Source: Paraphysoderma sedebokerense
Taxonomy: Eukaryota > Blastocladiomycota > Physodermatomycetes > Physodermatales > Physodermataceae
Length of the DNA: 64,000 bases
Assembly: GCA_025602915.1 (NCBI GenBank)
Contig: JAHLJZ010000089.1
Coordinates: forward strand, 32,792 to 96,791
Reading direction: 5' to 3'
Within the stretch, counting starts at the first letter, position 1; the number at the start of each line of letters is the position of its first letter. The notes beneath the pieces were generated by a model. The model worked only from the letters and a program-made list of their open reading frames with translations, was not told the DNA's origin and made no database searches. The position numbers and the translations under genes were made by a program. Of the stretch, positions 3,656-62,574 are shown piece by piece.

Positions 3656-3660
3656 ATGCA
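3574..3660 (+). promoter_or_regulatory. TATA-type promoter of membrane-protein gene 1
   Basis: A TATA box (CTATAAAAATAC) lies near 3575-3590, about 70-80 nt before the ATG at 3656. The 17 nt before the ATG (AAATCAAACACAGCG in gene 1, AATATCAAACACAGCG in genes 2 and 3) are nearly the same in all three array members, which supports the chosen start. Confidence 0.5.
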
Positions 3661-6600
3661 AACCAATGCCGTGCTTAGAATTGTCGCAAAGTTTTTCATC
3701 GCTATTCTGCTTTTTGGTAGTTTATTAGCCGTTGACATAATACCGTTCTTGCCTACTCCATGGTATTTAAACACCTCTGTTACGGTCAACTTACAGGCCG
3801 ACACGACCATAATTGATACGCACAGTTTGAAACCACCGGATTACTTGGTTTTGACGGGCCGGAACGGTTCAAATGTTGTTGGATTATATCGCTATCAAGT
3901 TGACAACAATGGGTGGGTTGGACTGAATACTACACTTGGTGGAATCGGATGGGCTTTTGATATCCAAAGGTCATTTAATTTTATATTTCCATAATTTTTC
4001 CCTGTACTACCGCGTGCTCATTACTAGCGCTATCTTAGGAAATGGTCGACAGCCGCAGTAACAGTGAATCCTTGGACAAGAATTCCATTCATAATTTATT
4101 TATATTCGAATAATTTGGTTTTCCGACAGTATCCGATTATCGATACTTTATTCGACAACAATTCCTCCGCTGGAACAGCATTCCAGTTTACCTTAGCCCG
4201 AGTTGTCCCGAGACCGTTTGTATCGATTTTTCAAGTTTTCAGCGTCGTCAAGCTCTTGATTTTTACGGAGTTTTTCTGTCTTCAATCATTAGGCATTTAG
4301 TTTTGCATTGGGCTGATAATACAACACTGTTTATCGGTATCCATTCGCATTCAACTCCGGATGCAGGGCTTCAATCTAACTTTATACTCGGCCGTTTCCA
4401 TGTGAACGATACTAGCGTCTTTCAGGAGGCGATCCATTCTCATCAGACCTTGATTTATTCCATGGAGTTTATATGCAGTACCTGCTCTGTAGACAATGTC
4501 CGGATGATCTTTGGCAATGGCACTATGGGTTATCTCGGCAAACGCGACAACCAGTATACATGGACCGGTGATTTGAAGACTTTCAGTGATGCGGCTGAAT
4601 TGTCTCACAAATGTTATAATTATGCGAAAAATTGGACTTATATCTACTATCGAGTTCGTGAAACTCAGTGGGACGAGGAACCCTTTTTCCATAAGATTCA
4701 CGACCCATCGAATTCCGCGGGTAATATACATATATATATAATGCAAATGTGATTTACCTACCCTCCAATAACTTCTGTTCCTTTCACAGATTATCTAGCC
4801 ATTGATCCACCGACATCTCCGCGTTTCGCTTTCCGAAACCAATTGGCGGTGCATTGCCATAACGACAGAGTTGTCACTGCCCTTGTAACGACCTCGGCCC
4901 TTATCAGAGGGCAAGTAGAATGGCTTAATCAAATGAATTCCAGAACTAAAGGCAAATCCGACATATTTGTATATTTTAAACGTTCCAATAGCGATGGGGA
5001 AAGTGATGAGGAAGTTATGGTGTTCTCGACACCTGGGAATGATAATGTTTCCCGCATTTACCTTGACAACACTCAATTTCACATCATCGGTCTGACTGAA
5101 GGTGATATTGCAGACACCAATGTCACTTCGTTTTCGAACAAACTTTTCTTTGCCGGATTTTCTGCTTTTGATATCGTATCTGTGCGAAGTCCGGACGCTG
5201 CGGATATTTTGGATTCAATTGAAATATTACCTAATCGTGACTTCGCCATACGGTTCTCTTCTTTGCCTGCCGATCGGAGCGCATTGTATCCCGCAGCGGT
5301 AACAATAAATAAATTCACTTGTGGTAACGTTCGGTGGATTGGCGATGAACTTTACGCTTTGGCTCTGCCTACCCTTGACAAAAGTAAGTTCTGTTACCCA
5401 ATGAATTACTGTAATTCTTCCTCTTTCACTTCTAACATCGTAGTCTGCCAGATTTTGATTTGGTCGTTGAATTCTATGCTTTTCCACATGTACCGAAAAT
5501 CTCTAAGACGGTTTCTTTAAAGCGACCATCGATCTTATCAGTTGTTCCTAACGTGACTGACATCGGTTCGTTTGTATCCCCTCTACTCTTTTTGTGATGC
5601 TTACTGACCCCATTTGGTTATAGCTCCTTTCACGACTCTACAGTTTGCCGTTTTATACATGGGGTCGACAGAATTCAATGACATGATTATCTTGATTGGG
5701 AATCAGAGATGCGAAGTCCAAACCGCGGGAGTAGTGCCAGACTTCTTTGGTGTGACAACTTTCAACTGCACTGTACCGTTTGATACAACTGGACGAAAAG
5801 CTATCGACGTTACCTCTGTCGGCCGGAAATTGGCGACCAATTTCACGCTCACGTACAGACAATTGTCACAGAATGTCACAATTGCAATAGATGAAGGCCA
5901 AGAGACCCCTATTGTGTTAAATTGTTCCGCATATGCCAACATTTTCAACGATTTTGAATACCGCATTCTTGAGACGCCTTTGATACCCGTGGGACAATTA
6001 CTCTTTGAAAACAAAACGGAGTTACCTTTTGGTAAGCATATCGACGTCGGAGATAGCCTCGGAAGATTGCGATTCCGTTCTTTAAGTCATGGGAGAGTCA
6101 GCTTTCAATATTATTGCGCTGGTGTGTGTCAACTTTTTCGTAATAATATGGCATTTATTGCTCTGAGTCGGCTCATCATTTCTGAGTAGACAATGCAACT
6201 TCGTTCTCGCCGATTTTGGCGACTGTCGTTATCAATATCCGTCCGGTTATAAAATGCCAAAATTCCGTCTTCACTACCGGCGTTTTTCTGCTGGATGAAA
6301 GAAATACGACATTATTCAAGTTAGAATAATTTTTTTGTGTCTACCATGAGATACATGCTGACGCTTTTTTTGTGATAGCAACTTAACCTACACTATAATG
6401 TCAGTTCCGTCTTGGGGAAGATTAGGGGGTGTGGAAAACACTGCATTCCTCGCAGCTGGTGATAGCACAGTCGAGACGAGTATTCGCCTGACTGGAAGAT
6501 TGGCTGTTAAACAGTATGTATGTCTACGCAAAAAAAATCCTGTACAGTTCTTAAACTTCTCCCCTAGATCCCCAACCGGTACTTTCTCGTACATTGCCGT

Positions 6601-8564
6601 GAATGAATACGGGATGATTTCAGATAAATGCGATGTCGTTTTCTTCATAAGCTGCCCAAATCCTTTATATTTAAATGTGTTTAACTCAAGCAACAATGAC
6701 TTTTGTGCGTCTTGTCCTCTGGGTGCTAAGTGCAGGTAAAATCTAAGACTATTCAACACGTTCGAATCACTTGTGAATATCTGATTTTTCTCTAATATCA
6801 CGAACAGCCCAATAGGTGGCCATCTACCGTATGCTGCTGCAGGATATTGGACGAGAACAGAAGTATACGATCTGAATTCCGTCTACTTACCTTGCGTACC
6901 GGTACATTTGTCTTATTTTCCGACAAGCTAGTGTAAAGATTGACTTTATATTTTGATAGAAAAATGCATGTCCCGGTTTACCATCGGGTGAATGTTCACC
7001 TGGATTTCGCGGGTTTCGATGTGCGGAGTGTGCAAAACTCTATTACAAGTTTGGTGATGACTGTCTGCCTTGTAAAGTTGGAAATGAAGTCAACACCATT
7101 CTGGCCCTTATAATTCTAGTTGGAGGGGGAGCCCTTGTGTACGGGTTATCTAAATTAGTGAAAGCGGGTCCCATGTATGTTTATCTGCTCTTCGCTCCCT
7201 TTCTAAAGGAATGTCTCAATTTACAATAATTTTATTTCCGTAGCTATGGGTTGGTCAATGTGCTGATATCATTCTTGCAAACTATTGTCATCTTGCGCGG
7301 ATTTCAATTGAACTGGCCACCAGAATTTCATGAGGTTTTGGGGTGGCTATCAGCTATAAATTTCAACATTGAATTCACAGCGCCTGGTACGTTGTTAATT
7401 CCAGTCACGTATCTAAGATATATGCATTGACTTTCAAGCAATTCTGTAGAATGCTTTCTGGGTGATTTCATCACCTACAGCCAACGGCTTCGTGTGACAT
7501 TTCTACTGCCCATATTCTTTGTGACGTTTGCGGCAATCGTGCCAATATTTTTTCGCGGATTTCGCTGGCTTCGACTCAAGATTCCAATTGGCAAACGAAA
7601 GTCGTTCCCTTTCAAATCTTTCAACGCCATATTGCTTATTCTTTACCTTGCGTATGTTAATTCCTTTCGGATGAACATGGCCCGTTCTGGGGTTCTGACG
7701 CTTCGTTTTCTCCCGACAGGCACTTCGATTGTCACTTAGATGTTGACGGGTTTAAGTATCTGGAGGTCGATACGGGTTTTACTATCTCGAGGTCGATCCA
7801 AGTTTGAAATGCTACGACAGTGCATGGAAGGCCGAGTTGCCCTATGTCATCAGCGCTATTTGGTTCGTCAGTTATTATTTGAACGAAGCAATTTATCCAT
7901 AAATTTAATTCTATTCAAAATAGGTTCTACGTTGTGGGGATTCCGCTCTATTTTGGATCAATGTTTTACTTCATGTATCAAGAACAACGAACCAGTTCTT
8001 TCTGGCGATCGGCGAAAAGTGTGGCACTGAGAATCATGCGGTTTGATGAGTACTACCAACAAACCCGTCAATATTTTGTATTAGTTAATCTACTGCAAAA
8101 ATTGGTCCTTGTAGCGGCGGGAGTTTTTTTCACCAAGTATGTCTGGTCTCGACTGATCATTTTCTATCCACAAGAGCACTTACTAATGAGTTCTCTAAAG
8201 TCAACGAGGAATCCAGACGGTGCTGACATCTCTTACCTTAAATGCGACGTTGACCTTGTCGATAGCATATAAGCCATATTCACATCGAATTCTTAACACC
8301 TCGGAGCAACTGTCGTTTGCTTCTTCGATAGCCGTGCTAGGCTTGGGGTTACCATTTTTGACGGACAGCATTGACAATTCAGTTAGGTCATTTTTGACAG
8401 TTTCAATTTTGAGCATAATATTTGGGTTCATTTTATTTACTTTTGGGGCGTGTCTGGTGGAGGCGAAAAGTCGTCTACTTGCATGGAGGGCCGGTACGTT
8501 TAAAAAAAATGCATCTCGAGCACCTCTTGTCGCTCTGTCTTCAACAGCACGACTGAAATGTTAG
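3656..8564 (+). pseudogene. Large polytopic membrane protein, array gene 1 (frame broken at 7748-7776)
   Basis: Many exons, for example 3656-3969, 4039-4215, 4293-4720, 4790-5383, 5452-5575, 5624-6121 and 6190-6319. A signal peptide of about 25 residues is followed by a long N-glycosylation-rich ectodomain. Then comes a Cys-rich module near 6650-7080 (CPLGAKC, CPGLPSGECSPGF, CAECAKLYY, CLPC) like the EGF/ephrin-receptor-type repeats of large protist and fungal surface proteins, and finally about eight hydrophobic segments from 7090 to 8470. Function is unknown; a receptor- or channel-like role is only inference. Relative to genes 2 and 3, a 26-bp imperfect tandem duplication at 7748-7799 shifts the frame and gives an in-frame TGA at 7805-7807, cutting off the last ~5 membrane segments. 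From about 7772 onward the DNA is identical to gene 2. The 5' two thirds is clearly diverged from gene 2. Confidence 0.65.
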
Positions 8565-9348
8565 TTGCTTCCGGGGAATCCATAATTTCTTTGTAAATGC
8601 TTGATGCGAGGAAAATTAATACTGTAATGATATGTAATAAAAATAATGGTATTGTAAACTTTTGGTCAAGGGTTCTTAATGCTTTGACCGAGAGATTCCG
8701 CACACTGTCGAAGTCTAATTATTAAACCCCGTCAGTCGCGACGTAAGTATTCGTAATGGGTAAATGATGAATAGATTAAGCGGCAAAAACACAAGTTTGG
8801 TACATAAAAATTGGTTCATATAGGTCATGTTGACGACTTTTAGAATCAGGATGCGGTCCGAGTCATAAAATCGGTTCACTCCTCGAAGAAACATACACAA
8901 GGAAATACTAGCAATGCTTTGCAACTTTCAATTTTCGAAGAACCCATTTACCCGCCGACTCGACGAAAAAGGAATTTGATGCGCCTAATCACTATTAGTT
9001 TATTTAACTTTATTACGCATGCGAGTTGCGGCTTGGTATCGTAAATCTCTCATTTGAATGATTGGACAGCTCTTTGGACCTTGCCAGCAGCCAGACTCGT
9101 TATGGAAGCCACTCAGGCCAGTCAAGACTCAAGACTGGGAGTGAGACAAAATGGTGTTGAACCTTGAAATTGAGAAAAGCATAGGGATTACGACTGAATT
9201 ACGGTGGCGAATTGAGGTATCCGTACAGTCAATCAAATTTTGGCTTTGGATATACAAACTAGTCTATACTTATATGCGTAGCCGTCCCGTCAAACGGTCA
9301 TATTGGTGATATGATATAGATCGAACTCGCGAAATATCAAACACAGCG
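8565..9348. other. Spacer between array genes 1 and 2
   Basis: AT-rich 784-bp spacer with no convincing gene on either strand. It contains the 3' flank of gene 1 and the promoter of gene 2. The same spacer is repeated exactly at 14305-15088. A CGAACTCGCGAAATATCAAA-type leader precedes the ATG at 9349. Confidence 0.6.
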
Positions 9349-12300
9349 ATGCAAACCAATACCATATTTCGAATTGTCACAAAATTTTTCATCGGCGTTG
9401 TGCTTTTTGGTAGATTATTAGCTTACGACAATATACCGTTCTTGCCAACTCCATGGTATTTAAATACCTCCGCTTCGGTCAACTTACAGGCCGGCACGAC
9501 CATCATCGATACACATAGCCTGAAACCACCGGATTACTGCGTTTTGACAGGCCGGAATGGTTCAAATGTGGTTGGACTATATAGGTATAAAGTTGAATAT
9601 ACTGGGTGGATTGGACTGAATACCACACTCGGTGGAGTCGGATGGGCTTTCGACATCCAAAGGTGCATTATATAATTTCCAATTTCACGAGGTTTTCTTC
9701 CGCTCTGCCGTGGCTCACCAGAAGCACTATCTTAGGAAATGGTCGACAGCCGCAATAACAGTGAATCCATGGACAAGAATTTTATATATTGTTTACTTAT
9801 ATTCCAATATGTTGGTCTTCCGGCAATATCCAATGATCGATACCTTATTCGACAGTAATTCCGCCACTGGTACGGCCTTCCAGTTTACCTTAGCCAGAGT
9901 TGTCCCGAGACCGTTTGTATCGAGTTTTCGTGTTTTGAACGTCGTCGAGCTCTTGATTTTTACTGTGCTTTGTTTTCAATCTTTAGACAATTCGTTCTAC
10001 ACTGGGCGGATAATTCCACTCTTTTTATTGGTATTCATTCGCATTCTCAACTGGATGTGGGACTTCAACCTAATTTCGTCCTCGGCGAGTTCCATGTGAA
10101 TGATACAAGCATTGTGCAAGCGCTAATCCATATTGATCAGCACCTAATGCTTTCCATGGAATTTGGATGCAGCACATGTTCTGTGAATAAGGTTCGAGTA
10201 ATATTTGGTAATGAAACTATAGGTTATCTGGGTAAAATCGGCGACCAATATTCCTTCACAACGGATGTGAAACTTTTCAGTATTGAAGGCGCGGAATTAC
10301 CACACAAATGTTATGATTTCGCTAGAAACCTGACCTACTTTTACTATCGAGTTCGTGAAACACAGTGGGACATGCGGCCGATCTATCAAAGATTCCACGA
10401 CCCTTCAACATCTATTGGTATGTCGCAGATTTCCTATGAAACTCTCTTACGTTGATACAGCTAAATTTTGACTGCATTAAAGAGGATACCGGGATAGATC
10501 CCCCTTTGGTGCCTCGAACCGCATTCCGCAACCAAATGGCACTTCATTGTCACAATGACAAAGTAATCACTGCCCTTGTAACGACAACGAGTCTCATTAG
10601 AGGAGAATCAGAATGGATTAACCAGATGAATTCGCGCACAAAGGGAAAATCGGACATATTCCTGTATACTAAACGTTTCAGTGCCCTTGAGGAGATCATT
10701 GTGTTGTCGACGCCGGGAAACGACAATGTTTCGCGCATTTACTTCGACGACACACAATTACACATCGTTGGTTTGACAGAAGGGGAAATCATGAACCCTA
10801 ATGCCAGTTTTTTATCTAACAAACTTTTTTTCGCCGGATTTCCGGCACTTAATATCATATCAGCAAGAAGCCCTGAAGCTGCAGAGATGTCGGGTCCGTT
10901 AGAAATCTTGCCTGATCGTGATTTTGCCATACAGTTCTCCTCTTTACCAGTCAATAGGGGGGCTATGTCTCCGGTTATTGTTAAAATCAATGATGTTCCC
11001 TGTGGCAATGTTCGATGGATGGGTGAAGAAATTTACGCATTAGCACCGCCAGGACTAAGCATCGGTTAAGTTCAACCATTCGTATAATCGTCTATGTTAA
11101 GCTTTCGTGCCCAATATTAACTCTGCTTTGAGTAGATTTTAGCTTATCTGTTGAATTTAACTCATATCCATATCAACCCAAGGTGGTTAAAACTGTCTCT
11201 TTGAAGCGGCCGTCGATTATTAATGTTGTTCCCAATGTTACCGACTTCGGTGAATACCTTCTGCTAGTCGTACTATTTTGGCTTATTTACTGACATCTTT
11301 CGTTGAAGCCCCTTTCACGACTGTACAGTTTACAGTTTCATACATGGGGCAAACAGAATTTAATGACATGGCTATCTTAATTGGGAATCAGAGATGCGAA
11401 GTCCAAACCGCGGGAGTAGTTCCAGACTTCTTTGGTGTGACAACTTTCAACTGCACTGTACCGTTTGATACTACTGGAAGAAAACCAATCGACGTTACAT
11501 CTGTCGGCCGGAAAGTGGCCAACAATTTCACTTTAATGTACAGACAATTGCCACAGAATGTCTCAATTACGATAGATGAAGGACAAGAGACTCCAATCGT
11601 GTTAAACTGTTCCGCATATGCAAATATTTTTAACAGTTTTCAATATCGCATCTTTGAAGCGCCTTATTTTTCGATTGGACGTTTGCTTTTCGAGAACAAA
11701 ACGGAACTTCCTATTGGGAACCATATTAATGTGGAAGACAACCTCGGAAGGTTGCGATTCCGCTCTACGAGTCACGGGAGAGTCGAGTTCAACTATTACT
11801 GCGCCTGTATGTATTTGCGACTGAATGTCTTTGTGGTAATCTTGCAATTATAAGAGGCAACTTACATTTTGTGCTGCAGATAATGGTACCTTCTTTTCCC
11901 CAATCCTTGGAACGGTAGTGATCGATGTCCGTCCAGTGATAAACTGTCGAAATACCGTCTCCACTACTGGCAACTTTTTACTGGATCAAAGGATGCCCAC
12001 CACAGCTAGGTTTTTTTTTTTTTTTTGTATTTTTTCACCGTGGAAGATACTTAACTTTTTTTAATTTAGCAACGTAACTTATTCGTTTCTCACAGTTCCG
12101 TCTTGGGGACAGTTGGTTGGAGTTGAAAGCACTCGACTTCTCAATGCAGGAGATAACACTCTTGAGACGGTCATCCGTCTAACCGGCCGATTAGCTGTTG
12201 AGCAGTATGTGCACTATCTCTATTGAATGAAATAGCTGATTCTCACCCCTCGAATAGGTCCCCAACTGGTAGTTTTTCCTACATTGCCTCGAATGATTAC

Positions 12301-14304
12301 GGAATGTTATCGGATAAATGCGAAGTTGTGTTCTTGATTAGCTGTCCAACTCCATCGTTCCTGAATGTGTTCAATTCCAGTGTCAGTGAATTTTGCACTT
12401 CGTGTCCATCAGGTGCGAAATGCAGGTAATATTTTCGACTTGCGTATACCTCTCAGACTTTTGGCACTTACATAAATCAACTACATGGCAACCGAAAACA
12501 GCCCAACTGGTGATCATCTACCGTATGCCGCTCCTGGATATTGGACAAGAACAGAAGTTTACGACCCGAACTCAATTTACTTGCCTTGTGTGCCGGTTCG
12601 TTTCGCTCTGTATAGCTTCAAGTCTAGTGCGGGGATTAACTTGATATTCTCATAGTCATATGCATGCCCTGGATTACCTTCAGGGGAATGTTCAGCTGGA
12701 TTTCGGGGATTTAGATGTGCGGAATGCGCCAAACTCTATTACCGATTTGGCGACGACTGTCTGCCATGTAAGGTAGGAAATGAAGTCAACACTATCCTTG
12801 CATTGGCAGTTTTGGTCGGAGGAGGTGCTCTTGTGTATGGATTGTCCAGAAAGTAGGACCGATGTATGTTTATTCTGCTCGTCTACTCTATCTTCGTCCT
12901 TGCAAGATATGTCTCAATTAACAATAACTTCATTCTGCAGCTATGGTTTGGTCAATGTGCTGATATCATTTTTGCAAACCATTGTCATTTTGCGCGGATT
13001 TCAATTGAACTGGCCACCGGAATTTTATGAGATACTAGGGTGGCTAACGGCTATAAATTTCAACATCGAATTCACAGCGCCTGGTAGGTTATCTATTTCA
13101 ATTACGTATATCAGATATACGCATTGACTTTTAAGCAATGATGTAGAATGCTTTCTGGGCGACTTCATCACCTACAGCCAACGGCTTCGTGTGACATTTC
13201 TACTGCCTTTATTCTTTGTGACCTTTGCGGCGATCGTGCCAATATTCATTCGTGGATTTCGCTGGCTTCGACTCAAGCTTCCAATTGGCAAACGGAAGTC
13301 ATCTCTAGAAATCCCGAAGGAGTTTGAATTTTTCAAATCTTTCAACGCCATATTGCTTATTCTTTACCTTGCGTATGTTAATTCCTTTCGGATGAAATGT
13401 AACAACGAGTTCTCTTGCGTATGTTAATTCCTTTCGGGTGAAATCGGCTCTTCGCTGGTTCTGATGCTTAGTTTTCTCCCGTTAGGCACTTCGATTGTCA
13501 TTTGGATATTGACGGGTTTTACTATCTCGAGGTCGATCCAAGTTTGAAATGCTACGACAGTGCATGGAAGGCCGAGTTGCCCTATGTCATCAGCGCTATT
13601 TGGTTCGTCAGTTATTATTTGAACGAAGCAATTTATCCATAAATTTAATTCTATTCAAAATAGGTTCTACGTTGTGGGGATTCCGCTCTATTTTGGATCA
13701 ATGTTTTACTTCATGTATCAAGAACAACGAACCAGTTCTTTCTGGCGATCGGCGAAAAGTGTGGCACTGAGAATCATGCGGTTTGATGAGTACTACCAAC
13801 AAACCCGTCAATATTTTGTATTAGTTAATCTACTGCAAAAATTGGTCCTTGTAGCGGCGGGAGTTTTTTTCACCAAGTATGTCTGGTCTCGACTGATCAT
13901 TTTCTATCCACAAGAGCACTTACTAATGAGTTCTCTAAAGTCAACGAGGAATCCAGACGGTGCTGACATCTCTTACCTTAAATGCGACGTTGACCTTGTC
14001 GATAGCATATAAGCCATATTCACATCGAATTCTTAACACCTCGGAGCAACTGTCGTTTGCTTCTTCGATAGCCGTGCTAGGCTTGGGGTTACCATTTTTG
14101 ACGGACAGCATTGACAATTCAGTTAGGTCATTTTTGACAGTTTCAATTTTGAGCATAATATTTGGGTTCATTTTATTTACTTTTGGGGCGTGTCTGGTGG
14201 AGGCGAAAAGTCGTCTACTTGCATGGAGGGCCGGTACGTTTAAAAAAAATGCATCTCGAGCACCTCTTGTCGCTCTGTCTTCAACAGCACGACTGAAATG
14301 TTAG
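9349..14304 (+). CDS. Large polytopic membrane protein, array gene 2 (best-preserved copy)
   Basis: Starts at an ATG with a hydrophobic signal peptide (about residues 8-26) and runs through roughly 16 exons to TAG-free coding sequence ending at 14304. I estimate 1,200-1,300 aa. The ectodomain contains many N-x-S/T sites. The Cys-rich module lies near 12340-12770 (CPSGAKC, GECSAGFRG, CAECAKLYY). The C-terminal part has eight or nine hydrophobic segments, ending in a basic, Ser/Ala-rich tail. The second intron (9913-9986) uses a GTTTGT donor. Compared with gene 1, seven bases are missing just before the usual donor at 12860. The frame survives only if the donor moves to GTAGGACC at about 12854, giving a protein six residues shorter there. 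A 24-bp direct repeat duplicates another 5' splice site near 13371. Not assigned to a named family. Confidence 0.65.
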
Positions 14305-15088
14305 TTGCTTCCGGGGAATCCATAATTTCTTTGTAAATGCTTGATGCGAGGAAAATTAATACTGTAATGATATGTAATAAAAATAATGGTATTGTAAACT
14401 TTTGGTCAAGGGTTCTTAATGCTTTGACCGAGAGATTCCGCACACTGTCGAAGTCTAATTATTAAACCCCGTCAGTCGCGACGTAAGTATTCGTAATGGG
14501 TAAATGATGAATAGATTAAGCGGCAAAAACACAAGTTTGGTACATAAAAATTGGTTCATATAGGTCATGTTGACGACTTTTAGAATCAGGATGCGGTCCG
14601 AGTCATAAAATCGGTTCACTCCTCGAAGAAACATACACAAGGAAATACTAGCAATGCTTTGCAACTTTCAATTTTCGAAGAACCCATTTACCCGCCGACT
14701 CGACGAAAAAGGAATTTGATGCGCCTAATCACTATTAGTTTATTTAACTTTATTACGCATGCGAGTTGCGGCTTGGTATCGTAAATCTCTCATTTGAATG
14801 ATTGGACAGCTCTTTGGACCTTGCCAGCAGCCAGACTCGTTATGGAAGCCACTCAGGCCAGTCAAGACTCAAGACTGGGAGTGAGACAAAATGGTGTTGA
14901 ACCTTGAAATTGAGAAAAGCATAGGGATTACGACTGAATTACGGTGGCGAATTGAGGTATCCGTACAGTCAATCAAATTTTGGCTTTGGATATACAAACT
15001 AGTCTATACTTATATGCGTAGCCGTCCCGTCAAACGGTCATATTGGTGATATGATATAGATCGAACTCGCGAAATATCAAACACAGCG
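14305..15088. other. Spacer between array genes 2 and 3 (copy of 8565-9348)
   Basis: Matches the spacer between genes 1 and 2 wherever I compared them, including the leader before the ATG. No gene seen. Genes 2 and 3 therefore share the same promoter sequence. Confidence 0.65.
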
Positions 15089-18000
15089 ATGCAAACCAAT
15101 ACCATATTTCGAATTGTCACAAAATTTTTCATCGGCGTTGTGCTTTTTGGTAGATTATTAGCTTACGACAATATACCGTTCTTGCCAACTCCATGGTATT
15201 TAAATACCTCCGCTTCGGTCAACTTACAGGCCGGCACGACCATCATCGATACACATAGCCTGAAACCACCGGATTACTGCGTTTTGACAGGCCGGAATGG
15301 TTCAAATGTGGTTGGACTATATAGGTATAAAGTTGAATATACTGGGTGGATTGGACTGAATACCACACTCGGTGGAGTCGGATGGGCTTTCGACATCCAA
15401 AGGTGCATTATATAATTTCCAATTTCACGAGGTTTTCTTCCGCTCTGCCGTGGCTCACCAGAAGCACTATCTTAGGAAATGGTCGACAGCCGCAATAACA
15501 GTGAATCCATGGACAAGAATTTTATATATTGTTTACTTATATTCCAATATGTTGGTCTTCCGGCAATATCCAATGATCGATACCTTATTCGACAGTAATT
15601 CCGCCACTGGTACGGCCTTCCAGTTTACCTTAGCCAGAGTTGTCCCGAGACCGTTTGTATCGAGTTTTCGTGTTTTGAACGTCGTCGAGCTCTTGATTTT
15701 TACTGTGCTTTGTTTTCAATCTTTAGACAATTCGTTCTACACTGGGCGGATAATTCCACTCTTTTTATTGGTATTCATTCGCATTCTCAACTGGATGTGG
15801 GACTTCAACCTAATTTCGTCCTCGGCGAGTTCCATGTGAATGATACAAGCATTGTGCAAGCGCTAATCCATATTGATCAGCACCTAATGCTTTCCATGGA
15901 ATTTGGATGCAGCACATGTTCTGTGAATAAGGTTCGAGTAATATTTGGTAATGAAACTATAGGTTATCTGGGTAAAATCGGCGACCAATATTCCTTCACA
16001 ACGGATGTGAAACTTTTCAGTATTGAAGGCGCGGAATTACCACACAAATGTTATGATTTCGCTAGAAACCTGACCTACTTTTACTATCGAGTTCGTGAAA
16101 CACAGTGGGACATGCGGCCGATCTATCAAAGATTCCACGACCCTTCAACATCTATTGGTATGTCGCAGATTTCCTATGAAACTCTCTTACGTTGATACAG
16201 CTAAATTTTGACTGCATTAAAGAGGATACCGGGATAGATCCCCCTTTGGTGCCTCGAACCGCATTCCGCAACCAAATGGCACTTCATTGTCACAATGACA
16301 AAGTAATCACTGCCCTTGTAACGACAACGAGTCTCATTAGAGGAGAATCAGAATGGATTAACCAGATGAATTCGCGCACAAAGGGAAAATCGGACATATT
16401 CCTGTATACTAAACGTTTCAGTGCCCTTGAGGAGATCATTGTGTTGTCGACGCCGGGAAACGACAATGTTTCGCGCATTTACTTCGACGACACACAATTA
16501 CACATCGTTGGTTTGACAGAAGGGGAAATCATGAACCCTAATGCCAGTTTTTTATCTAACAAACTTTTTTTCGCCGGATTTCCGGCACTTAATATCATAT
16601 CAGCAAGAAGCCCTGAAGCTGCAGAGATGTCGGGTCCGTTAGAAATCTTGCCTGATCGTGATTTTGCCATACAGTTCTCCTCTTTACCAGTCAATAGGGG
16701 GGCTATGTCTCCGGTTATTGTTAAAATCAATGATGTTCCCTGTGGCAATGTTCGATGGATGGGTGAAGAAATTTACGCATTAGCACCGCCAGGACTAAGC
16801 ATCGGTTAAGTTCAACCATTCGTATAATCGTCTATGTTAAGCTTTCGTGCCCAATATTAACTCTGCTTTGAGTAGATTTTAGCTTATCTGTTGAATTTAA
16901 CTCATATCCATATCAACCCAAGGTGGTTAAAACTGTCTCTTTGAAGCGGCCGTCGATTATTAATGTTGTTCCCAATGTTACCGACTTCGGTGAATACCTT
17001 CTGCTAGTCGTACTATTTTGGCTTATTTACTGACATCTTTCGTTGAAGCCCCTTTCACGACTGTACAGTTTACAGTTTCATACATGGGGCAAACAGAATT
17101 TAATGACATGGCTATCTTAATTGGGAATCAGAGATGCGAAGTCCAAACCGCGGGAGTAGTTCCAGACTTCTTTGGTGTGACAACTTTCAACTGCACTGTA
17201 CCGTTTGATACTACTGGAAGAAAACCAATCGACGTTACATCTGTCGGCCGGAAAGTGGCCAACAATTTCACTTTAATGTACAGACAATTGCCACAGAATG
17301 TCTCAATTACGATAGATGAAGGACAAGAGACTCCAATCGTGTTAAACTGTTCCGCATATGCAAATATTTTTAACAGTTTTCAATATCGCATCTTTGAAGC
17401 GCCTTATTTTTCGATTGGACGTTTGCTTTTCGAGAACAAAACGGAACTTCCTATTGGGAACCATATTAATGTGGAAGACAACCTCGGAAGGTTGCGATTC
17501 CGCTCTACGAGTCACGGGAGAGTCGAGTTCAACTATTACTGCGCCTGTATGTATTTGCGACTGAATGTCTTTGTGGTAATCTTGCAATTATAAGAGGCAA
17601 CTTACATTTTGTGCTGCAGATAATGGTACCTTCTTTTCCCCAATCCTTGGAACGGTAGTGATCGATGTCCGTCCAGTGATAAACTGTCGAAATACCGTCT
17701 CCACTACTGGCAACTTTTTACTGGATCAAAGGATGCCCACCACAGCTAGGTTTTTTTTTTTTTTTTGTATTTTTTCACCGTGGAAGATACTTAACTTTTT
17801 TTAATTTAGCAACGTAACTTATTCGTTTCTCACAGTTCCGTCTTGGGGACAGTTGGTTGGAGTTGAAAGCACTCGACTTCTCAATGCAGGAGATAACACT
17901 CTTGAGACGGTCATCCGTCTAACCGGCCGATTAGCTGTTGAGCAGTATGTGCACTATCTCTATTGAATGAAATAGCTGATTCTCACCCCTCGAATAGGTC

Positions 18001-19786
18001 CCCAACTGGTAGTTTTTCCTACATTGCCTCGAATGATTACGGAATGTTATCGGATAAATGCGAAGTTGTGTTCTTGATTAGCTGTCCAACTCCATCGTTC
18101 CTGAATGTGTTCAATTCCAGTGTCAGTGAATTTTGCACTTCGTGTCCATCAGGTGCGAAATGCAGGTAATATTTTCGACTTGCGTATACCTCTCAGACTT
18201 TTGGCACTTACATAAATCAACTACATGGCAACCGAAAACAGCCCAACTGGTGATCATCTACCGTATGCCGCTCCTGGATATTGGACAAGAACAGAAGTTT
18301 ACGACCCGAACTCAATTTACTTGCCTTGTGTGCCGGTTCGTTTCGCTCTGTATAGCTTCAAGTCTAGTGCGGGGATTAACTTGATATTCTCATAGTCATA
18401 TGCATGCCCTGGATTACCTTCAGGGGAATGTTCAGCTGGATTTCGGGGATTTAGATGTGCGGAATGCGCCAAACTCTATTACCGATTTGGCGACGACTGT
18501 CTGCCATGTAAGGTAGGAAATGAAGTCAACACTATCCTTGCATTGGCAGTTTTGGTCGGAGGAGGTGCTCTTGTGTATGGATTGTCCAGAAAGTAGGACC
18601 GATGTATGTTTATTCTGCTCGTCTACTCTATCTTCGTCCTTGCAAGATATGTCTCAATTAACAATAACTTCATTCTGCAGCTATGGTTTGGTCAATGTGC
18701 TGATATCATTTTTGCAAACCATTGTCATTTTGCGCGGATTTCAATTGAACTGGCCACCGGAATTTTATGAGATACTAGGGTGGCTAACGGCTATAAATTT
18801 CAACATCGAATTCACAGCGCCTGGTAGGTTATCTATTTCAATTACGTATATCAGATATACGCATTGACTTTTAAGCAATGATGTAGAATGCTTTCTGGGC
18901 GACTTCATCACCTACAGCCAACGGCTTCGTGTGACATTTCTACTGCCTTTATTCTTTGTGACCTTTGCGGCGATCGTGCCAATATTCATTCGTGGATTTC
19001 GCTGGCTTCGACTCAAGCTTCCAATTGGCAAACGGAAGTCATCTCTAGAAATCCCGAAGGAGTTTGAATTTTTCAAATCTTTCAACGCCATATTGCTTAT
19101 TCTTTACCTTGCGTATGTTAATTCCTTTCGGATGAACATGGCATGTAACAACGAGTTCTCTTGCGTATGTTAATTCCTTTCGGGTGAAATCGGCTCTTCG
19201 CTGGTTCTGATGCTTAGTTTTCTCCCGTTAGGCACTTCGATTGTCATTTGGATATTGACGGGTTTTACTATCTCGAGGTCGATCCAAGTTTGAAATGCTA
19301 CGACAGTGCATGGAAGGCCGAGTTGCCCTATGTCATCAGCGCTATTTGGTTCGTCAGTTATTATTTGAACGAAGCAATTTATCCATAAATTTAATTCTAT
19401 TCAAAATAGGTTCTACGTTGTGGGGATTCCGCTCTATTTTGGATCAATGTTTTACTTCATGTATCAAGAACAACGAACCAGTTCTTTCTGGCGATCGGCG
19501 AAAAGTGTGGCACTGAGAATCATGCGGTTTGATGAGTACTACCAACAAACCCGTCAATATTTTGTATTAGTTAATCTACTGCAAAAATTGGTCCTTGTAG
19601 CGGCGGGAGTTTTTTTCACCAAGTATGTCTGGTCTCGACTGATCATTTTCTATCCACAAGAGCACTTACTAATGAGTTCTCTAAAGTCAACGAGGAATCC
19701 AGACGGTGCTGACATCTCTTACCTTAAATGCGACGTTGACCTTGTCGATAGCATATAAGCCATATTCACATCGAATTCGTTTTTGA
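15089..19786 (+). CDS. Large polytopic membrane protein, array gene 3 (C-terminus truncated by deletion)
   Basis: Identical to gene 2 for almost its whole length. Exceptions are a 6-bp insertion near 19137, inside the duplicated splice-donor region, and the end of the gene. At 19778/19779 a 61-bp segment present in genes 1 and 2 (14033-14093) is missing. This puts TGA at 19784-19786 in frame soon after the HRI residues and removes roughly the last 95 residues, including the final two hydrophobic segments. Coding-looking sequence continues after the break (19779-19989), but in another frame. The encoded protein would keep signal peptide, ectodomain, Cys-rich module and most membrane segments. 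Confidence 0.6.
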
Positions 19787-19989
19787 CAGACAGCATTGGC
19801 AATTCAATTAAATCGTTCTTGACGTTTTCGATTTTGAGTATTATTTTTGGGTTTATTTTATTTATTTTTGCGGCGTTTTTAATAGAGGCGAAAAGTCGTC
19901 TGAGGGCCTGGAGGGCTGGTGCGTTCAAAAAAAATGCATCTCTGGCGCCTCTGGTTGCTAAAACTTCAACAGCACAACTGAAACCTTAG
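19779..19989 (+). pseudogene. Orphaned 3' tail of a diverged array paralogue
   Basis: This segment encodes a C-terminus homologous to the end of genes 1 and 2 (the LTDSIGNSIKSFL, EAKSRLRAW and FKKNAS blocks) but clearly diverged at DNA level, whereas everything to its left is identical to gene 2. It ends with TAG at 19987-19989. It is out of frame with gene 3, so it is the remnant of a different paralogue that formed the right end of the array before amplification. Confidence 0.65.
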
Positions 19990-38502: not shown

Positions 38503-39079
38503 AGTTTTTTAAGACGGCACCGAGTTAAGGCGCTGCAGATTACTGTAAGGGTTATGTCTCTGGTGGAATATAAATTGTAGTCATTAATACGTAGCCAATC
38601 AGCATTCTATGATGCACTTTTGTGAAATTGTACAGATGGTATATTACTAAAAATGGTATATCACTATGAAAATAATCCTGGTTATTTTTCACTTCATTGG
38701 TGAAATCATTCAAATCTGAGCAAACCACTGATCGTGGAGATTCTTGCGCTATTCTATAGTTGCTAGTGTTAATAAATACTGTGTCATCGTATAATTCTCA
38801 TTATCTTACTGATGAGTGATCCCACTTTCCCGATTTTGATTGATGGCAGCGGCCAGCATATGTCATAATCAGCGGAAAGTTTCTAAGCGGATAATCTCGA
38901 GTACAATCAAAGAGCAATGACATGGATCTGGCCTCTGGGTCCCAGTTCATCCAGTATCAATTCATCAATGACGTATGTTCATTTTCGATCACTACATAAC
39001 ATGCAATGAACATTCCCTGATATTTTGGCCTCTCTAAAGCCTTGATTGCTTTTCTTTCACAAACTAAAAGCTTTGAGAT
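38503..39079. other. Intergenic region, includes promoter of Het-C-like gene 1
   Basis: AT-rich spacer. Its last ~180 bp resembles the region upstream of the second Het-C-like gene (see separate entries). No other gene seen. Confidence 0.5.
38954..38982 (+). promoter_or_regulatory. Conserved upstream block with TGACGTA, Het-C-like gene 1
   Basis: A 29-bp block about 125 bp before the ATG is shared almost base for base with the block at 41813-41841 before the paralogue. It contains TGACGTA, the core recognised by ATF/CREB-type bZIP factors. A GAGTACAATCAAA motif lies upstream of both. Confidence 0.45.
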
Positions 39080-41144
39080 ATGTTTCGATTACTTGCGTTG
39101 ATGTTTTTAGCGACTCTATGTCCATTCTATTCCGCGTATGACACTGGACATCATGCCGATGTGACGAGAAACAGCATGCTGCTGTTCAACTACAGTACCG
39201 TTGCAACTGACACTGCAGTTCTGATGAATTGGTTTACCGTAAGTGCACATTTTTCGTTCTATTGTTTGACCTCGGCGCGGTTTACAATAATATTATTATT
39301 GTCATTTAGGACTTGTATGCCTTTTCTCTTTCCTTTGGAAATGGTTTGGATGCATCTTCCAACTAATTTTCTATATAATGTTTTAACAGCGCTTCCGTTA
39401 TAGATGTTGTAGTACCAAAATACATTCCAGAATTGGAATCAATGCATTGTGATAATCTTTATAATTTCGTATACGCGGCCAATTACATGTCGCAATTGGT
39501 TATCAACACAAGGTTAGTTGCCGAGTCAATTCAGTAAGACAATACCTAGAATCTTACGTAAATTCAGAAATGCCATCCAATCAGCGGTCCGACAAAACGA
39601 TCCATTGTTATATCTAGCATTGCTTGGGAGCAGTGTTCATACCGTTCAAGACTTTTATACGCATAGTAATTGGGCCGATATTTTCTATCGGACTTCGTGT
39701 AGCTGTCTTGAGAATGGGCCTACTTTTTATCAAGTTCTAACAAGCGTGAATGGAAACGTGAGTGAGATCCCCCTGAAATGGCCTCAACTAGCAAATTTAC
39801 GTACATGTATGTGTCACTTCTCCTTCTTTCAGTATTACTTGGTACTAACCCTGAGTCGACAACCCTACCTCAGATTCTTGGAACGGTGTATCAAACAATT
39901 CAGTGAATCTGTACCCCGGTCAAGTTCAGCATGGCGACTACTGCAGTGGAATCAATCATGATTCATATGTTAGACCAACCTTTGAGCAATCCTATGCTCA
40001 CGCCCTTTCGGCATCTTTGGAGTGGTTGCTCAATATCGAGAATTGGGCAGGAGAAGTCAATAACACCTTCGTGAATTATGTAAAGACTGCTTATGTCGCC
40101 AATAATACGGAACAGCTTGCGGCAAATCTGGATTCCAGTTTTGTGGTTTCTTACTCCGCTGGGACTTGGGTTTTCGGAGAGAATAATGGTCACTATAAGG
40201 GAGCTGGGTCTGCAAATACGGATTTGTTCGGTGCTGCCACTGCAAGTCTTGCCAGAAGTGATACGGTTTATACAAAGGTTAGAATTTTCATTCCTTATAT
40301 TATTACTACTTAATCATCGTCTCACTTTCGCTTGACCGATACAATCTTTCAGCTCTATACGGACCAAGACGCATACAAACCGTTAGTTACCCCTTCGCTC
40401 TACACGGATCGGAATGTCTCCAATAATCCAGCAGTCGCAACCGCAGCAGAATACATTACCCCGTATTCGTCGATTCCGCAAAATTATCTGCCCTCATCAC
40501 AACTTTTTGTTCTCCGTACACTGTGGTATCAAACCCCTGGCCGATCCGCTTTGGATGATCCAAATGCATATTCCGAGGTTGCCTTTAATGTACATTCTAA
40601 CATCATGGTTATGAAGGATGCCCCAATGAAAGACCAAAGAACCTTCCGTCCACATTGGACTAGTATTATGGCTGTTCCATCGTTTGTGCCTGACAATGTA
40701 ATATCGAACGTCTAAATCTATGCGATTGATTGAGCATTAACCAACTTCGGAAATTGTAGGTAACAAATGTTGGCTATACGTTACTAGAGGCCGCAGATCA
40801 AAGTGTGTATGGCGTAACCGCTGACGACGGAAAACTAAATATAACGATTGATGCGACCAACATGACATTTTCAGGTTTGTTCCTCGTGCTTGTTTTCTGT
40901 ATGCGTTTGCTGAAGTCACCATCTATCGTTGACGATTGTATTTTCTTCAGGCGACATTTCGGGTCAGCTGGGAACTCCGTTTAACACAACCGGAGGACGA
41001 AGTACTGCCGAAATTTATTTGTTCCAACTACAATATGGAAATTGCGGCGATTTGAAAATTCCACCGATGCCAGATACGTATTGTAATAATACGGCATACG
41101 GCTCAATGTTGCTGTTTCAACCGCAATGTGCAGGTGCAGCTTAG
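39080..41144 (+). CDS. Secreted Het-C/VWA7-like protein, copy 1
   Basis: Eight exons (39080-39238, 39310-39343, 39404-39512, 39568-39806, 39874-40277, 40353-40697, 40760-40874, 40951-41144; 1,599 nt, 532 aa). A clear signal peptide (about residues 1-18) is followed by YDTGHHADVTRN and, near residue 115, HTVQDFYTHSNW. These paired His/Asp motifs are the hallmark of the Het-C/VWA7 group, whose fold is related to zinc phospholipase C/P1 nuclease. The mature protein has many N-glycosylation sites and ~10 Cys. The likely place of action is outside the cell or on its surface. Enzymatic activity is unproven; the metal-ligand set is only partly visible. Confidence 0.65.
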
Positions 41145-41932
41145 GCGCTTCCTCCATAACGTTGTTAAGTTCATATCTGTCTTTCCGGTAGTTCTCTTGT
41201 TTCGTATTCTCGCATATGTTAAATATTTGAAATATCAATGCCAAAGTTGGGCATAACTTCGATGGTTCGTTCGTGAATAACCATATGGATTTTTTAATTG
41301 AATATAAAACGTCATTCTTCATCCAAAAGATTGATGTTGGGCTTCTCTTCGTATATTGTGAGACGCGAGGGACTCACCTAGCATGACATTTTTCACTGAT
41401 AGATATGTTATCAACCTTGAGTGGTGTCTATGGTCGCATTAGTTGAGTAATCTCAGCCTGTTGGAAATTTGGCACACGATTGTACTTTGATTGTTCCAAA
41501 TTTCGTAAATTAAAGCGCAGATCATTATGATTCATCTTCACGTAGTACGGGAATAACTTGAAATGTTGAATTTGAAGCTGATAAATCGACCAGTTGTATG
41601 TGCAACAAATATATCAGTATCGGAGACGTATTCAACTTGAACAATATAGAATTTTCTACATTCAAGTGATGCATCATACATTTCCTACGATTAAAATCGA
41701 TAGCTAGGGAATGTTCCCGGCCCAATCCCGTGTATCAAAAGCGAACAAAGATCGGGAGTACAATCAAACAACAATTAGTTGTATCGAAGATAAAGTCATT
41801 TTGTATCAATTCATTAATGACGTATGCTCATGTTTACATCAGTACATAAAATGCTACATGCTGTTGTTGCCGACGGGAATTTATTCGTATGCCAAAGTGT
41901 AGCTCTTCAGCAAGCTGCAAATATTTGCGACT
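41145..41932. other. Spacer between the Het-C-like genes
   Basis: AT-rich 788-bp spacer. Its last ~180 bp is homologous to the promoter of copy 1. No gene seen. Confidence 0.5.
41813..41841 (+). promoter_or_regulatory. Conserved upstream block with TGACGTA, Het-C-like gene 2
   Basis: Counterpart of 38954-38982, about 120 bp before the ATG at 41933. Only two bases differ, although the surrounding spacer has diverged. Confidence 0.45.
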
Positions 41933-43975
41933 ATGTTTCGATTAATTTTTTTGATCTATTTAGCGGTTTTTTGCCCGTTTTATGCCGCATACGACACAGG
42001 CCATCATGCCGATGTAACAAGAAATAGCATGTTGCTATTCAACTACAGTTCTGTCGCAACCGACACTGCGGTTCTGATGAATTGGTTTACCGTTGGTACC
42101 ATACAATCTGCTCGGCCCAACAAACTCGCGTCTCTAATATTTCTTTTACTTCGTTAGGACTTGTACGCTTTTTCGTTATCATTTGGAAGAGGTTTGAATA
42201 CAATACTACACAAGTTAATGTACAGTACTAATATTTCCTATCACTTTAGATATTATTGTCCCCAAATTCATTCCAGAGCTGGAGTCCATGCATTGTGACA
42301 ATCTTTATAATTTCGTGTATGCCGCAAACTACATGTCACAGCTGGTAATCAATACGAGGTTGGTGTTTTAAAAATTTAAGTCATAAACTCTCGATATAAT
42401 TCATACATATATATTGTAGGAATGCCATTCATTTAGCGGTTCGCCATAATGATCCGCTGTTGTATCTAGCCATGTTTGGAAGCAGTGTTCATACCGTTCA
42501 AGACTTCTATACGCATAGTAATTGGGCCAGTATATTTTACCGGACTTCATGCAGCTGTCTTGAGAGTGGGCCTACGTTTTATCAAGTTCTCAAGAGCGTG
42601 AATGGAAACGTCACCGAGATCCCCCTGAAATGGCCTCAGCTTGCTAATCTGCGTACATGTATGGGTCCCTCCTGCATTCCGTAATTTGTGCCAATGTGCT
42701 GAGTCGACTAACTAATCACAGATTCTTGGGATGGTGTATCAAATCATTCCGAGAACCTTTATCCTGGTCAGGTGCAACACGGAGATTACTGCAGCGGAAT
42801 CAACCAAGATTCATACGTCAGACCAACCTTTGAGCAATCTTATGCTCATGCACTTTCGGCAACGTTGGAGTGGTTGTTCAATGTCGAAAACTGGGCGGGA
42901 GAGATCAACAGTACCTTCGTGGATTACGTAAAAATAGCTTATGTCGCAAACAATACGGAACAGCTTGCCGCCAATTTGAGGTCCAGCTTTGTCGTTTCTT
43001 ACGCTGCCTCAGCCTGGGTGTTTGGAGAAAACGACGGACATTACAAAGGTGCTGGATCGGGTAATACTGATGTGTTTATTGCAGCGACTGTCAGCCTTGC
43101 TCGAAGTAATACGGTCTATACCAGGGTAAGAATTGAACAAATTTAAAGGCATCCATTTTTCGATTGACTGATGATGACTTTAGCTTTACACCGACCAAGA
43201 CGCATACAAACCGCTAGTTACCCCTTCGCTCTACACAAATCGAAATATCTCAAACAATCCAGCAGTTACAACTGCTGCAGAATATATTACACCGTATTCT
43301 TCGATTCCACAAAACTATCTACCCTCATCACAACTATTTGTTCTACGTACTTTATGGTACCAAACTCCGGGGCGATCATTGCTCGATGCTCCTAATGCCT
43401 ATTCTCAAGTCGCTTTCAATATCCATTCGAACATTATGATAATGAATGATGCTCCAATGAAGGATCAAAGATCCTTTCGTCCATATTGGACTAGCATTAT
43501 GGCGGTCCCATCGTTAGTGCCTGACAATGTATAGTCACTTATCCAAACTATTATAGAGGTGTCAAACATTAACTTTCCTTGAACATTGTAGGTAACAAAT
43601 GTTGGCTATACGTTATTAGAGGCGGCGGATCAAAGTGTATATGGGGTCACATCGGATGACGGAAGGCTTAATATTACGATTGATGCAACCACCATGTCGT
43701 TCTCAGGTTTGTCTCTGTTTGTAACTTTCTCTTACGCATACAATAATTCATCGCTACTATTTTTGGTATCAATTTGATTAGGTGACATTTCCGGCCAATT
43801 GGGAACTACCTTTAATACAACAGGAGGACGTAGTACGGCCGAGATATTCTTACTTCCACTTCAGTACGGAGATTGCGGTAATCCAAAAATACCACCAATG
43901 CCAGACACATATTGTAATAATACCGCATACGGCTCGATGTTGCTGTTCCAACCTAATTGTAAAGGAGCTGCTTAA
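41933..43975 (+). CDS. Secreted Het-C/VWA7-like protein, copy 2
   Basis: Tandem paralogue of the gene at 39080, in the same orientation with the same exon plan. Signal peptide, YDTGHHADVTRN, HTVQDFYTHSNW, the CSGINQDSYVRPTFEQSY block and the C-terminal PPMPDTYCNNTAYG block are all kept. Third-position and intron divergence is high while protein identity is high, so both copies appear to be under selection and are an older duplication than the 5.7-kb array. It ends at TAA 43973-43975. Estimated size is about 530 aa. Confidence 0.65.
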
Positions 43976-54831: not shown

Positions 54832-55760
54832 ATATAAAATGAGAGGATCCCTGTGGAACATTACAACCTCTGTTCTCTCCAAACCTTCATATTCTGACTC
54901 AACCTATCACAAACGATGTTTACTCAACTTCATTTCGGGACAATATGTATCAACATCCTTGTATTCGCGACCACTCCGATTTCCGCGTCTTGGTCAGATA
55001 AGGAATACGGGGAGGGCGTCCTTTTTTCCTGGGTTCGCATTTCTTTTATTCATTTTACCCGACTACCTCTCTCAGAATGAAAGTAACGAGTTATCTCTAT
55101 AAAGTCTGAAGGAGTCATCTTACACAAATTCAAATCTGAAAAATTTGGCCTGCCTCGCTCGGCCAGATTCAACAACACTATCAGCGTCAGTAGACTTGTC
55201 TTTTCCCTCTGGCCCTGCGGCCGGAGCGTTAGGGGCAATATCTGACCATTCCCAAATATGGATGGGCGCACATCAATGTAAAAACAATACAGACCCTAAC
55301 AAAGACCCTACTTGTTTTGAACAAACAACCTGCGGCTTCTGTTTTGAAGTTGAGTGCGATGAATACTGGGATAACGCAAAAAGGGATCACCCCAATACCT
55401 GTCACAAGGATAAAAGTGTGATAATAAAAGTTTTAGATGGTAAAACGCGCTTTCTATTCAGATATAGTGATTTGATATACTAACTCTGTCCAACCCATTG
55501 ACAATGAAGCTTGCCCTGGCGTACATAAAATCAATGAACCTAAGGGTACAGCGAATTGGTGCAAGGATACAGGTGTGAACCACTTTGATTTATACCGTCC
55601 GGCCTTTGATCATATCGCAAATTTGGATGATGGTGTAATTAAAATGAAGTTCCGGCAGACGGATTGCAGTCGAGTTGGATACTGGTACAGAGACAGCAAC
55701 GGAAAATCTCAAAGATATAATTATGTTCCTGTGGGCGGAGGTTTGCCCACATCTGCATGA
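54832..55760 (+). CDS. Expansin-like (double-psi beta-barrel) secreted protein
   Basis: A TATA box (CATATAAAAT) at 54831 precedes an ATG at 54916 whose frame gives a good signal peptide (MFTQLHFGTICINILVFATT). The join of this exon to the next is unresolved. The supported body is 55165-55439 plus 55510-55760. It carries CGFCFEVECDEYW, IKVLDACPGVH (made by splicing), NHFDLYRPAFDHIANL and GVIKMKFRQTDC, the order found in expansins and other DPBB proteins, including the HFDL motif. The intron has a perfect TACTAAC branch site near 55478. Such proteins loosen or bind cell-wall polysaccharide. The C-terminal carbohydrate-binding domain of plant expansins is absent. Confidence 0.65.
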
Positions 55761-56589: not shown

Positions 56590-57283
56590 CTCGGTAACTG
56601 TTTTCGCAAATACAGAAGAGCATGAACCATAATTCCGCACCGATTTTTTAATTTTGCTTAATTAAACCATTCAATTATGTACATATTGCTTTCGCGTTGC
56701 GGAAACTCGGGTGCCAGTGATTTATAGTGCTAATAGACCGATGACAATAGAGCTTGACATTAGCAGTGGCGCATTTGATCTATTCTTAATTGTATCATGT
56801 ATTGACAATTCAAAATTCATTACAGCCCCATTTGAAGAAATATTACTAAAGGATATTTTTAATGTTTACAATTATTTTCCATTTTATGTCCATTACCGTT
56901 TCAAGTTAATATAAACATTGTAAAGCAGAATGACATTACTATTACAGCAACGCTATTACAGCCAATTCTTCAGATCTCGTATACTTGGTGCTGTTGGGGC
57001 GGGGGCGGTAATCGGTTTCGACATCTATGGGATCGTCGAAGCTTGTCATAAGACAGATAATCTGGATGAAAGAGAATGTTAGTTAAACTGTTTTTTTTAC
57101 AAACTTATCGGCGAAACAAAGAATCCCGTCTGACTCTATGTTCTATTAGGTTGGACTAGTGTAATTGTTATGGGTTTAGATATTGCCTCACTTGTCGGGT
57201 GTGCGGTTGCTGCAGGTAAGCAACATTTTAACACTCCCAGTTGAAATCAGTGCATTTTTACTAACGATTGATCTCAATAATAG
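56590..57283 (+). pseudogene. Decayed and rearranged 5' part of lectin-gene copy 1
   Basis: 56590-56970 is homologous to 62060-62400, the region upstream of copy 2 (shared LDISSGAFDLFLIV and SKFITAPFE-coding stretch), but has an in-frame TGA near 56728. At about 56973 it jumps directly into a duplicate of internal exons: 56973-57283 repeats 57612-57920 (offset 637-639 bp, the right 130 bp identical including a complete intron). Copy 1 therefore lacks the exons that in copy 2 encode the signal peptide and first ~350 residues. Normal splicing from this duplicate into 57284 gives a stop at once. Confidence 0.6.
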
Positions 57284-61885: not shown

Positions 61886-62335
61886 ATGAGCCTAGAAATT
61901 ATAAACGGCTTGCCTGAGTTCACCGGCCCACGGCTTGCAACTTCTAACTTAGCAATGGTCAGCACTATCTCGTCCACTATTACCAACTTCTTGCATAAAA
62001 ATCTCAGAGAACAGCTAGTCAATAATGTCACCTCGCAAATGCAGCAGATAGGAAGCATAGTGCCGCACCGAGTTTTGGATTTTGGTTTGATTAAACCGTT
62101 CAATCAAATACAAGCTATCGCGTTGCGGAGACTCGGGTGCCACCGAATTTTTAGTGCTAATAGACGCATGACAATAGCCCTTGATATTAGCAGTGGCGCA
62201 TTTGATCTATTCCTGATTGTATCATCTATTGGCAATTCAAAATTCATTACAGCCCCATTTGAAGACATATTACTAAGACTATATTTAATATCTACAATTA
62301 TTCTACAATTTATTCCATTACCTGTTTCAAGTTAA
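61886..62335 (+). CDS. Hypothetical small protein upstream of lectin-gene copy 2
   Basis: Uninterrupted frame of 149 codons from ATG. It is supported only by the partly conserved homologous stretch at 56590-56930, where several differences keep the amino acid (for example in SSGAFDLFLIV) but a stop has appeared. No known domain. It could also be a 5' exon remnant of an older form of the lectin gene. Confidence 0.3.
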   Translation: MSLEIINGLPEFTGPRLATSNLAMVSTISSTITNFLHKNLREQLVNNVTSQMQQIGSIVPHRVLDFGLIKPFNQIQAIALRRLGCHRIFSANRRMTIALDISSGAFDLFLIVSSIGNSKFITAPFEDILLRLYLISTIILQFIPLPVSS

Positions 62336-62574
62336 TGCGACTATTGTAACGCAGACTGACATCCGCTATTACAGCAACGTTATATTACAGCCACTTTTCC
62401 AAAGTTATTGATACCAGCCCTTTAATGCATTCCTGACATATATGGGTATTATATTAGCAATTTAGTTCAAATGGCTGCTTTGTTCAATAGAAACGTTGAG
62501 ATGCAGGACTGCACCGAAGACCCAATAAATGTTAAAAACCAGCATCGCCCCGTTCCAAGATCATATGATACACA

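Follow-up and report, generated by a model that had tools for sequence, protein, structure and literature searches.

Results

The locus and its gene models

The window analysed here, i.e. the whole stretch of DNA with its 64,000 nucleotides (N count of 0), contains three related genes in the same orientation, named A, B and C, which are cut across by a block of nearly perfect direct repeats (Table 1). Two sequence types can be told apart along these genes. Q-type sequence makes up the block, which is 12,007 bp long and comprises two 5.74-kb units and a remainder of 521 bp, while P-type sequence is found at both of its outer ends.

Table 1. Coordinates of the genes, repeat units and junctions (positions in the window)
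Feature	Position	Strand	Basis or length
Gene A, diverged P-type, exons 1-13 open, frameshift at the left block edge	3656..7807	+	curated exon model, edge alignment
Junction at the left outer edge (7771/7772), where a P-type 26-mer abuts its block-type counterpart, 26 bp off register	7746..7797	+	alignment, Tandem Repeats Finder
First full repeat unit (gene tail, spacer and 5' part of gene B)	7772..13511	+	5,740 bp
Gene B, sole open copy, 16 exons, 1,300 aa	9349..14304	+	curated exon model, third-position bias
Second full repeat unit	13512..19257	+	5,746 bp
Gene C, B-like until it meets the right block edge and out of frame beyond it	15089..19786	+	curated exon model, edge alignment
Older mosaic around intron 13 of gene C	19071..19164	+	72 bp identical to A, 17 unmatched bases, intron start again Q-type
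Third, partial copy	19258..19778	+	521 bp
Diverged native tail past the right outer junction	19779..19989	+	80.6% identical to A/B over 211 bp

The curated models contain 15 introns, whose places match between A and B; those of gene B are short (53-113 bases) and of the GT-AG type. Most differences between A and B affect the third codon position (16 of 26 in exon 2 and 25 of 43 in the initial 150 bases of exon 3), which supports the frame of the curated models. At intron 11 of gene B (12840-12945), the apparent donor lies 11 bases upstream of the donor matching gene A; this shift is deduced from the exon, which would otherwise be off by 7 bp relative to A and lose its frame. In the same models, the first stop is met at 7807 in gene A and at 19786 in gene C, giving products of 1,099 and 1,212 aa, respectively. 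It had originally been proposed that each crossover rebuilds a gene. The curated models do not support this view, as B alone is open and the frames of A and C are shifted exactly at the outer edges of the block; the outer genes appear to be broken and the middle one whole. A crude gene finder returned open chains running past both faulty edges by way of other introns (1,412 aa for A and 1,304 aa for C), so alternative splicing is possible and the broken state of A and C depends on the curated models. The same gene finder placed the start of all three genes one base late, missed conserved introns and overran the gene ends.

Over exons 1-13, A and B share 805 of 1,060 aligned residues, with a dS of 0.97 and a dN/dS of 0.15, and the tail that follows the block is open in its own frame with a dN/dS of 0.20. 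As judged from these two ratios (1,060 and 69 codons, respectively), the coding sequence outside the block is under purifying selection, and this constraint makes it probable that the breakage of A and C is recent.

Anatomy and age of the repeat block

Exact string comparison shows that 7772-13396 is the same as 13512-19136 (5,625 bp) and 13397-14032 the same as 19143-19778 (636 bp). The two full copies display no substitution in 6,261 compared positions and a single gap of 6 bp as their sole difference. Besides, the segments 7772-8292, 13512-14032 and 19258-19778 are identical over 521 bp each. Since the next-longest exact direct repeat in the window measures only 144 bp (30-base seeds), chance is excluded as a source of the 5.7-kb repeat. 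The copies are adjacent, direct and several kilobases long, and they span coding, intron and spacer sequence alike, as is typical of a recent tandem segmental duplication. Of the 1,300 codons of gene B, number 1079 marks the beginning of the unit and number 1210 the end of the 521-bp segment. These results agree with the original prediction of a recent tandem duplication among related genes that is out of phase with them, and of a segment common to all three genes that marks where recombination took place. Its proposed structure of two units plus a remainder also holds, but the remainder and the shared segment, given as 519 bp and about 510 bp, are actually 521 bp long; similarly, both unit boundaries lie inside the reading frame as announced, but in its last fifth rather than broadly in its 3' third.

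Both units contain a T run of equal length (16 T), which fits either a very young event or one consensus that was used twice. The lack of substitutions in 6,261 positions sets an upper limit of about 5e-4 per site on divergence between the units (95%). With 3e-10 mutations per base per generation, the order of magnitude for yeast, this limit translates into an age under about 0.9 million generations.

The inner and outer joins of the block differ in kind. The inner join is seamless: it consists of native unit sequence, and B is open across it. At the outer joins, almost no overlap exists between the sequences brought together. On the left side, an A-type 26-mer (7746-7771) is followed by its block-type equivalent (7772-7797), to which it is identical at 23 of 26 positions, a pair that is also reported by Tandem Repeats Finder. 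The block sequence begins here 26 bp too early in gene coordinates and, in the curated model, shifts the frame of A. On the right side (19778/19779), identity to A/B stops and 61 bp of A/B have no counterpart, and the frame of C is shifted in the curated model as well. Simple unequal crossing-over leaves no indel in the flanking genes, whereas 26 bp are in excess on the left and 61 bp are missing on the right, both shifting the frame.

Probable traces of older exchanges

The 6-bp difference corresponds to the motif CATGGC in intron 13, which is present in the second copy, in gene C (19137-19142), and absent from the first copy, in gene B. The motif is also found in gene A (7676-7681), within a stretch of 72 bp (7610-7681) that is identical to 19071-19142. 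Since gene A retains it, a loss from the first copy is likelier than an insertion into the second one, and gene B has probably lost it. A single 6-bp difference between the units was thus correctly noticed at the outset, but its reading as an insertion probably has to be reversed.

This sole difference between B and C sits at the edge of the older mosaic around intron 13, whose tract likewise ends out of register, with the 17 unmatched bases. No source of these bases was found in the window outside the two copies, where their best matches have 4 mismatches in 17 in forward and 5 in reverse-complement orientation. Uninterrupted identity reaches 72 bp between A and C and 66 bp between A and B (78-79 columns when gaps are skipped). 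The longest run over 2,000 shuffles was 58, so that these tracts are longer than expected between diverged paralogues, as gene conversion would leave them; the shuffles assume even divergence, and the run-length test is weakened by an identity of 92-95% in the region near the block. Among nine stretches along the gene, dS takes values between 0.29 and 2.5.

Identity between A and B rises to 91% at 5622-5822, an island that contains perfect matches of 41 and 50 bp (5695-5786) and is flanked by 200-bp stretches that are 72.5% and 79% identical. This island is probably an older conversion patch, and sequence exchange within the gene family has probably occurred repeatedly.

Predicted product of gene B

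Gene B is predicted to encode a membrane protein, for which the earlier designation as a surface protein is a fair prediction. The protein starts with a hydrophobic segment (residues 6-24) and contains 28 cysteines and 21 N-glycosylation sequons, 18 of which precede the first of seven C-terminal hydrophobic segments delineated by a Kyte-Doolittle scan. Up to E = 1, its single Pfam match is TIG, with 19.5 bits for a cut-off of 20.9. No Pfam 7tm family was matched up to the same E value, and the protein does not qualify on this basis as a known 7tm GPCR. The whole protein had no match among PDB sequences up to E = 1. Searches with 484 aa of the C-terminal part confirmed none of 12 candidates in a collection of prokaryote genomes and did not confirm the only candidate from viral contigs either; neither collection being fungal, these outcomes carry little weight. 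TIG-bearing 7TM receptors in Salpingoeca and Capsaspora, as well as metazoan-like GPCRs in basal fungi, are described in the retrieved part of PMC3251606. The product of gene B resembles the receptors of Salpingoeca and Capsaspora, as they appear in that part, by its long sequon-rich N-terminal part, its TIG-like stretch and its seven C-terminal hydrophobic segments, but it differs from them by the lack of a Pfam 7tm match, a TIG score below the cut-off and the lack of a PDB relative.

Surroundings of the array

The window appears to be fungal by its short GT-AG introns and by its Pfam matches, which include a fungal PH-like domain protein, an alternative oxidase, a Tom37-like protein and a universal stress protein; a search of the window with Rfam gave no match at the gathering score. 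A second, older tandem pair (38954-41143 and 41803-43974) displays 74.5% nucleotide identity over 2.2 kb, and the predicted protein of its first member matches Pfam VWA7_N just over the cut-off (28.5 versus 27.5 bits). Several related pieces with 80-92% identity are spread over 56604-57921 and 62033-64000, including a close pair at 56973-57284 and 57612-57921. For the predicted protein at 62575-63929, Pfam gave a match to the family 'ribonuclease' (8.5e-06), and a predicted small protein at 55262-55760 has a double-psi beta-barrel match (DPBB_1, 9.9e-08).

Discussion

The 5.74-kb duplication described in this work belongs to a known class, namely tandem duplications that arise by recombination between paralogues. 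The class being known, the informative part of the locus is its untidy, near-register edges. Besides, one simple tandem duplication leaves two copies of a segment, and the presence of three identical 521-bp segments means that recombination through the segment is needed. We tentatively favour, although it falls a little short of being probable, a mechanism in which a P gene was repaired from a circular or repeated 5.74-kb Q template, with imprecise outer joins. Recombination between neighbouring paralogues would have generated a 5.74-kb unit, made of one gene and its spacer and either circular or arranged as a short tandem. The P gene would have suffered a gap within the last fifth of its coding sequence, repaired by copying this Q template, whose circular or repeated nature would have allowed about two extra laps of synthesis before capture of the second end. 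Both ends would have been finished by imprecise joining, near register, and the outcome would be one whole Q gene between two broken chimaeras. A single repair event of this kind covers both faulty edges and the identity of all three 521-bp segments. By a simple formula, the probability that two ends placed at random on a circle of 5,740 bp both fall so near homologous positions is about 2e-4.

Individual steps of this templated repair have precedents in the literature. For yeast paralogous neighbours such as HXT6/HXT7, the retrieved sections of PMC11879418 propose a circle together with a chromosomal fusion gene, and they mention the return of circles made by ODIRA at a homologous place. The excerpted review PMC3678771 reports that NHEJ leaves small indels and that template switching occurs early in break-induced replication. 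The narrower version of the mechanism, in which a one-gene circle was copied for two extra laps and thereby duplicated a whole gene while breaking the recipient at each end, seems to us on the unlikely side. A partial search of the literature yielded no natural case that we could recognise as multi-lap gap repair from a circle. If this version were true, the mosaic of intron 13 would represent an earlier trace of equally untidy repair at the identical place.

What counts against gap repair is that neither a circle nor a second Q locus was seen, and that a stepwise combination of unequal exchange and conversion can yield the identical sequence. The original prediction considered that a circle and unequal exchange would both fit. 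Both are possible, but plain unequal exchange in an identical segment predicts clean outer edges and therefore needs an additional conversion step with faulty ends. In such a stepwise scenario, the chief competitor of gap repair, which we regard as a real possibility while thinking it rather improbable, A and B would be old neighbours. Conversion by B would have replaced part of A and, through a faulty left end, broken that gene, and a later duplication of the 5.74-kb unit through the shared segment, by unequal exchange or break-induced replication, would have had a faulty right end. This scenario requires neither a circle nor a second locus, draws on tandem paralogues and earlier conversion tracts that exist at the locus, and produces by unequal exchange exactly two units plus the shared segment. 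The upstream regions of A and B are also weakly alike, as expected for old neighbours (score of 111.5 versus 106.5 for the highest of 200 shuffles); without the 35 bp adjoining the start codon, the score is 96.5 versus a shuffle maximum of 98.5. The price is that two distinct events are needed, that each must have left a faulty end shifting the frame precisely at an identity edge, and that both must be so young that the three 521-bp copies still show no difference. Because only two sequence types are present per side, divergence cannot assign the tail that follows the block to the 5' part of A versus the old gene B. The downstream spacer comparison gave a score of 55.0 versus a shuffle median of 61.5, and neither the downstream nor the upstream spacers are of help for pairing the outer parts.

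We consider it improbable that the second unit, or else an outer join, is an artefact of the assembly or library and absent from the cell. Copies that are perfect to the base, including the equal T run, are what a consensus used twice is expected to give, but the units differ by 6 bp that gene A also carries, and an assembler would have had hardly any overlap with which to bridge the outer joins. Finally, a dedicated recombination system generating membrane-protein variants, with the shared segment as exchange point, could account for repeated exchange near the same exons and for chimaeric genes, but it is highly improbable given that both outer products are frameshifted, that the stretches read contain no recombinase-like site or regular junction, and that dN/dS is low.

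Clean unequal exchange is the usual explanation for tandem arrays of membrane-protein genes. The fresh junctions reported here suggest that one growth event can give one good gene and two broken ones, which bears on the joint origin of fusion genes and pseudogenes in gene arrays.

Compared with known systems, the block shares with unequal crossing-over at yeast CUP1 and rDNA (works cited in PMC8150848) the head-to-tail units and a copy number changed by out-of-phase exchange, but it differs by indels at both outer edges, which clean exchange does not predict. The long-tract copying from another template and the early switches of break-induced replication, as outlined in the accessible portion of PMC3678771, are also reminiscent of templated repair, except that copying is deduced here from the sequence only. 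In the human segmental duplications mediated by eccDNA, the duplicated fragment is thought to have been circularised, cut elsewhere and reinserted, according to the available text of PMC7188851; insertion took place there at another location, whereas the present unit recurs within a related gene, close to register. Further parallels are offered by the yeast paralogues HXT6/HXT7, CUP1 and ENA, for which the same part of PMC11879418 proposes that paralogues in direct repeat give a one-unit circle and a fusion gene. In contrast to these systems, P and Q are diverged (dS of about 1 over exons 1-13), the circle is hypothetical, and the outer joins lie out of register and shift the frame.
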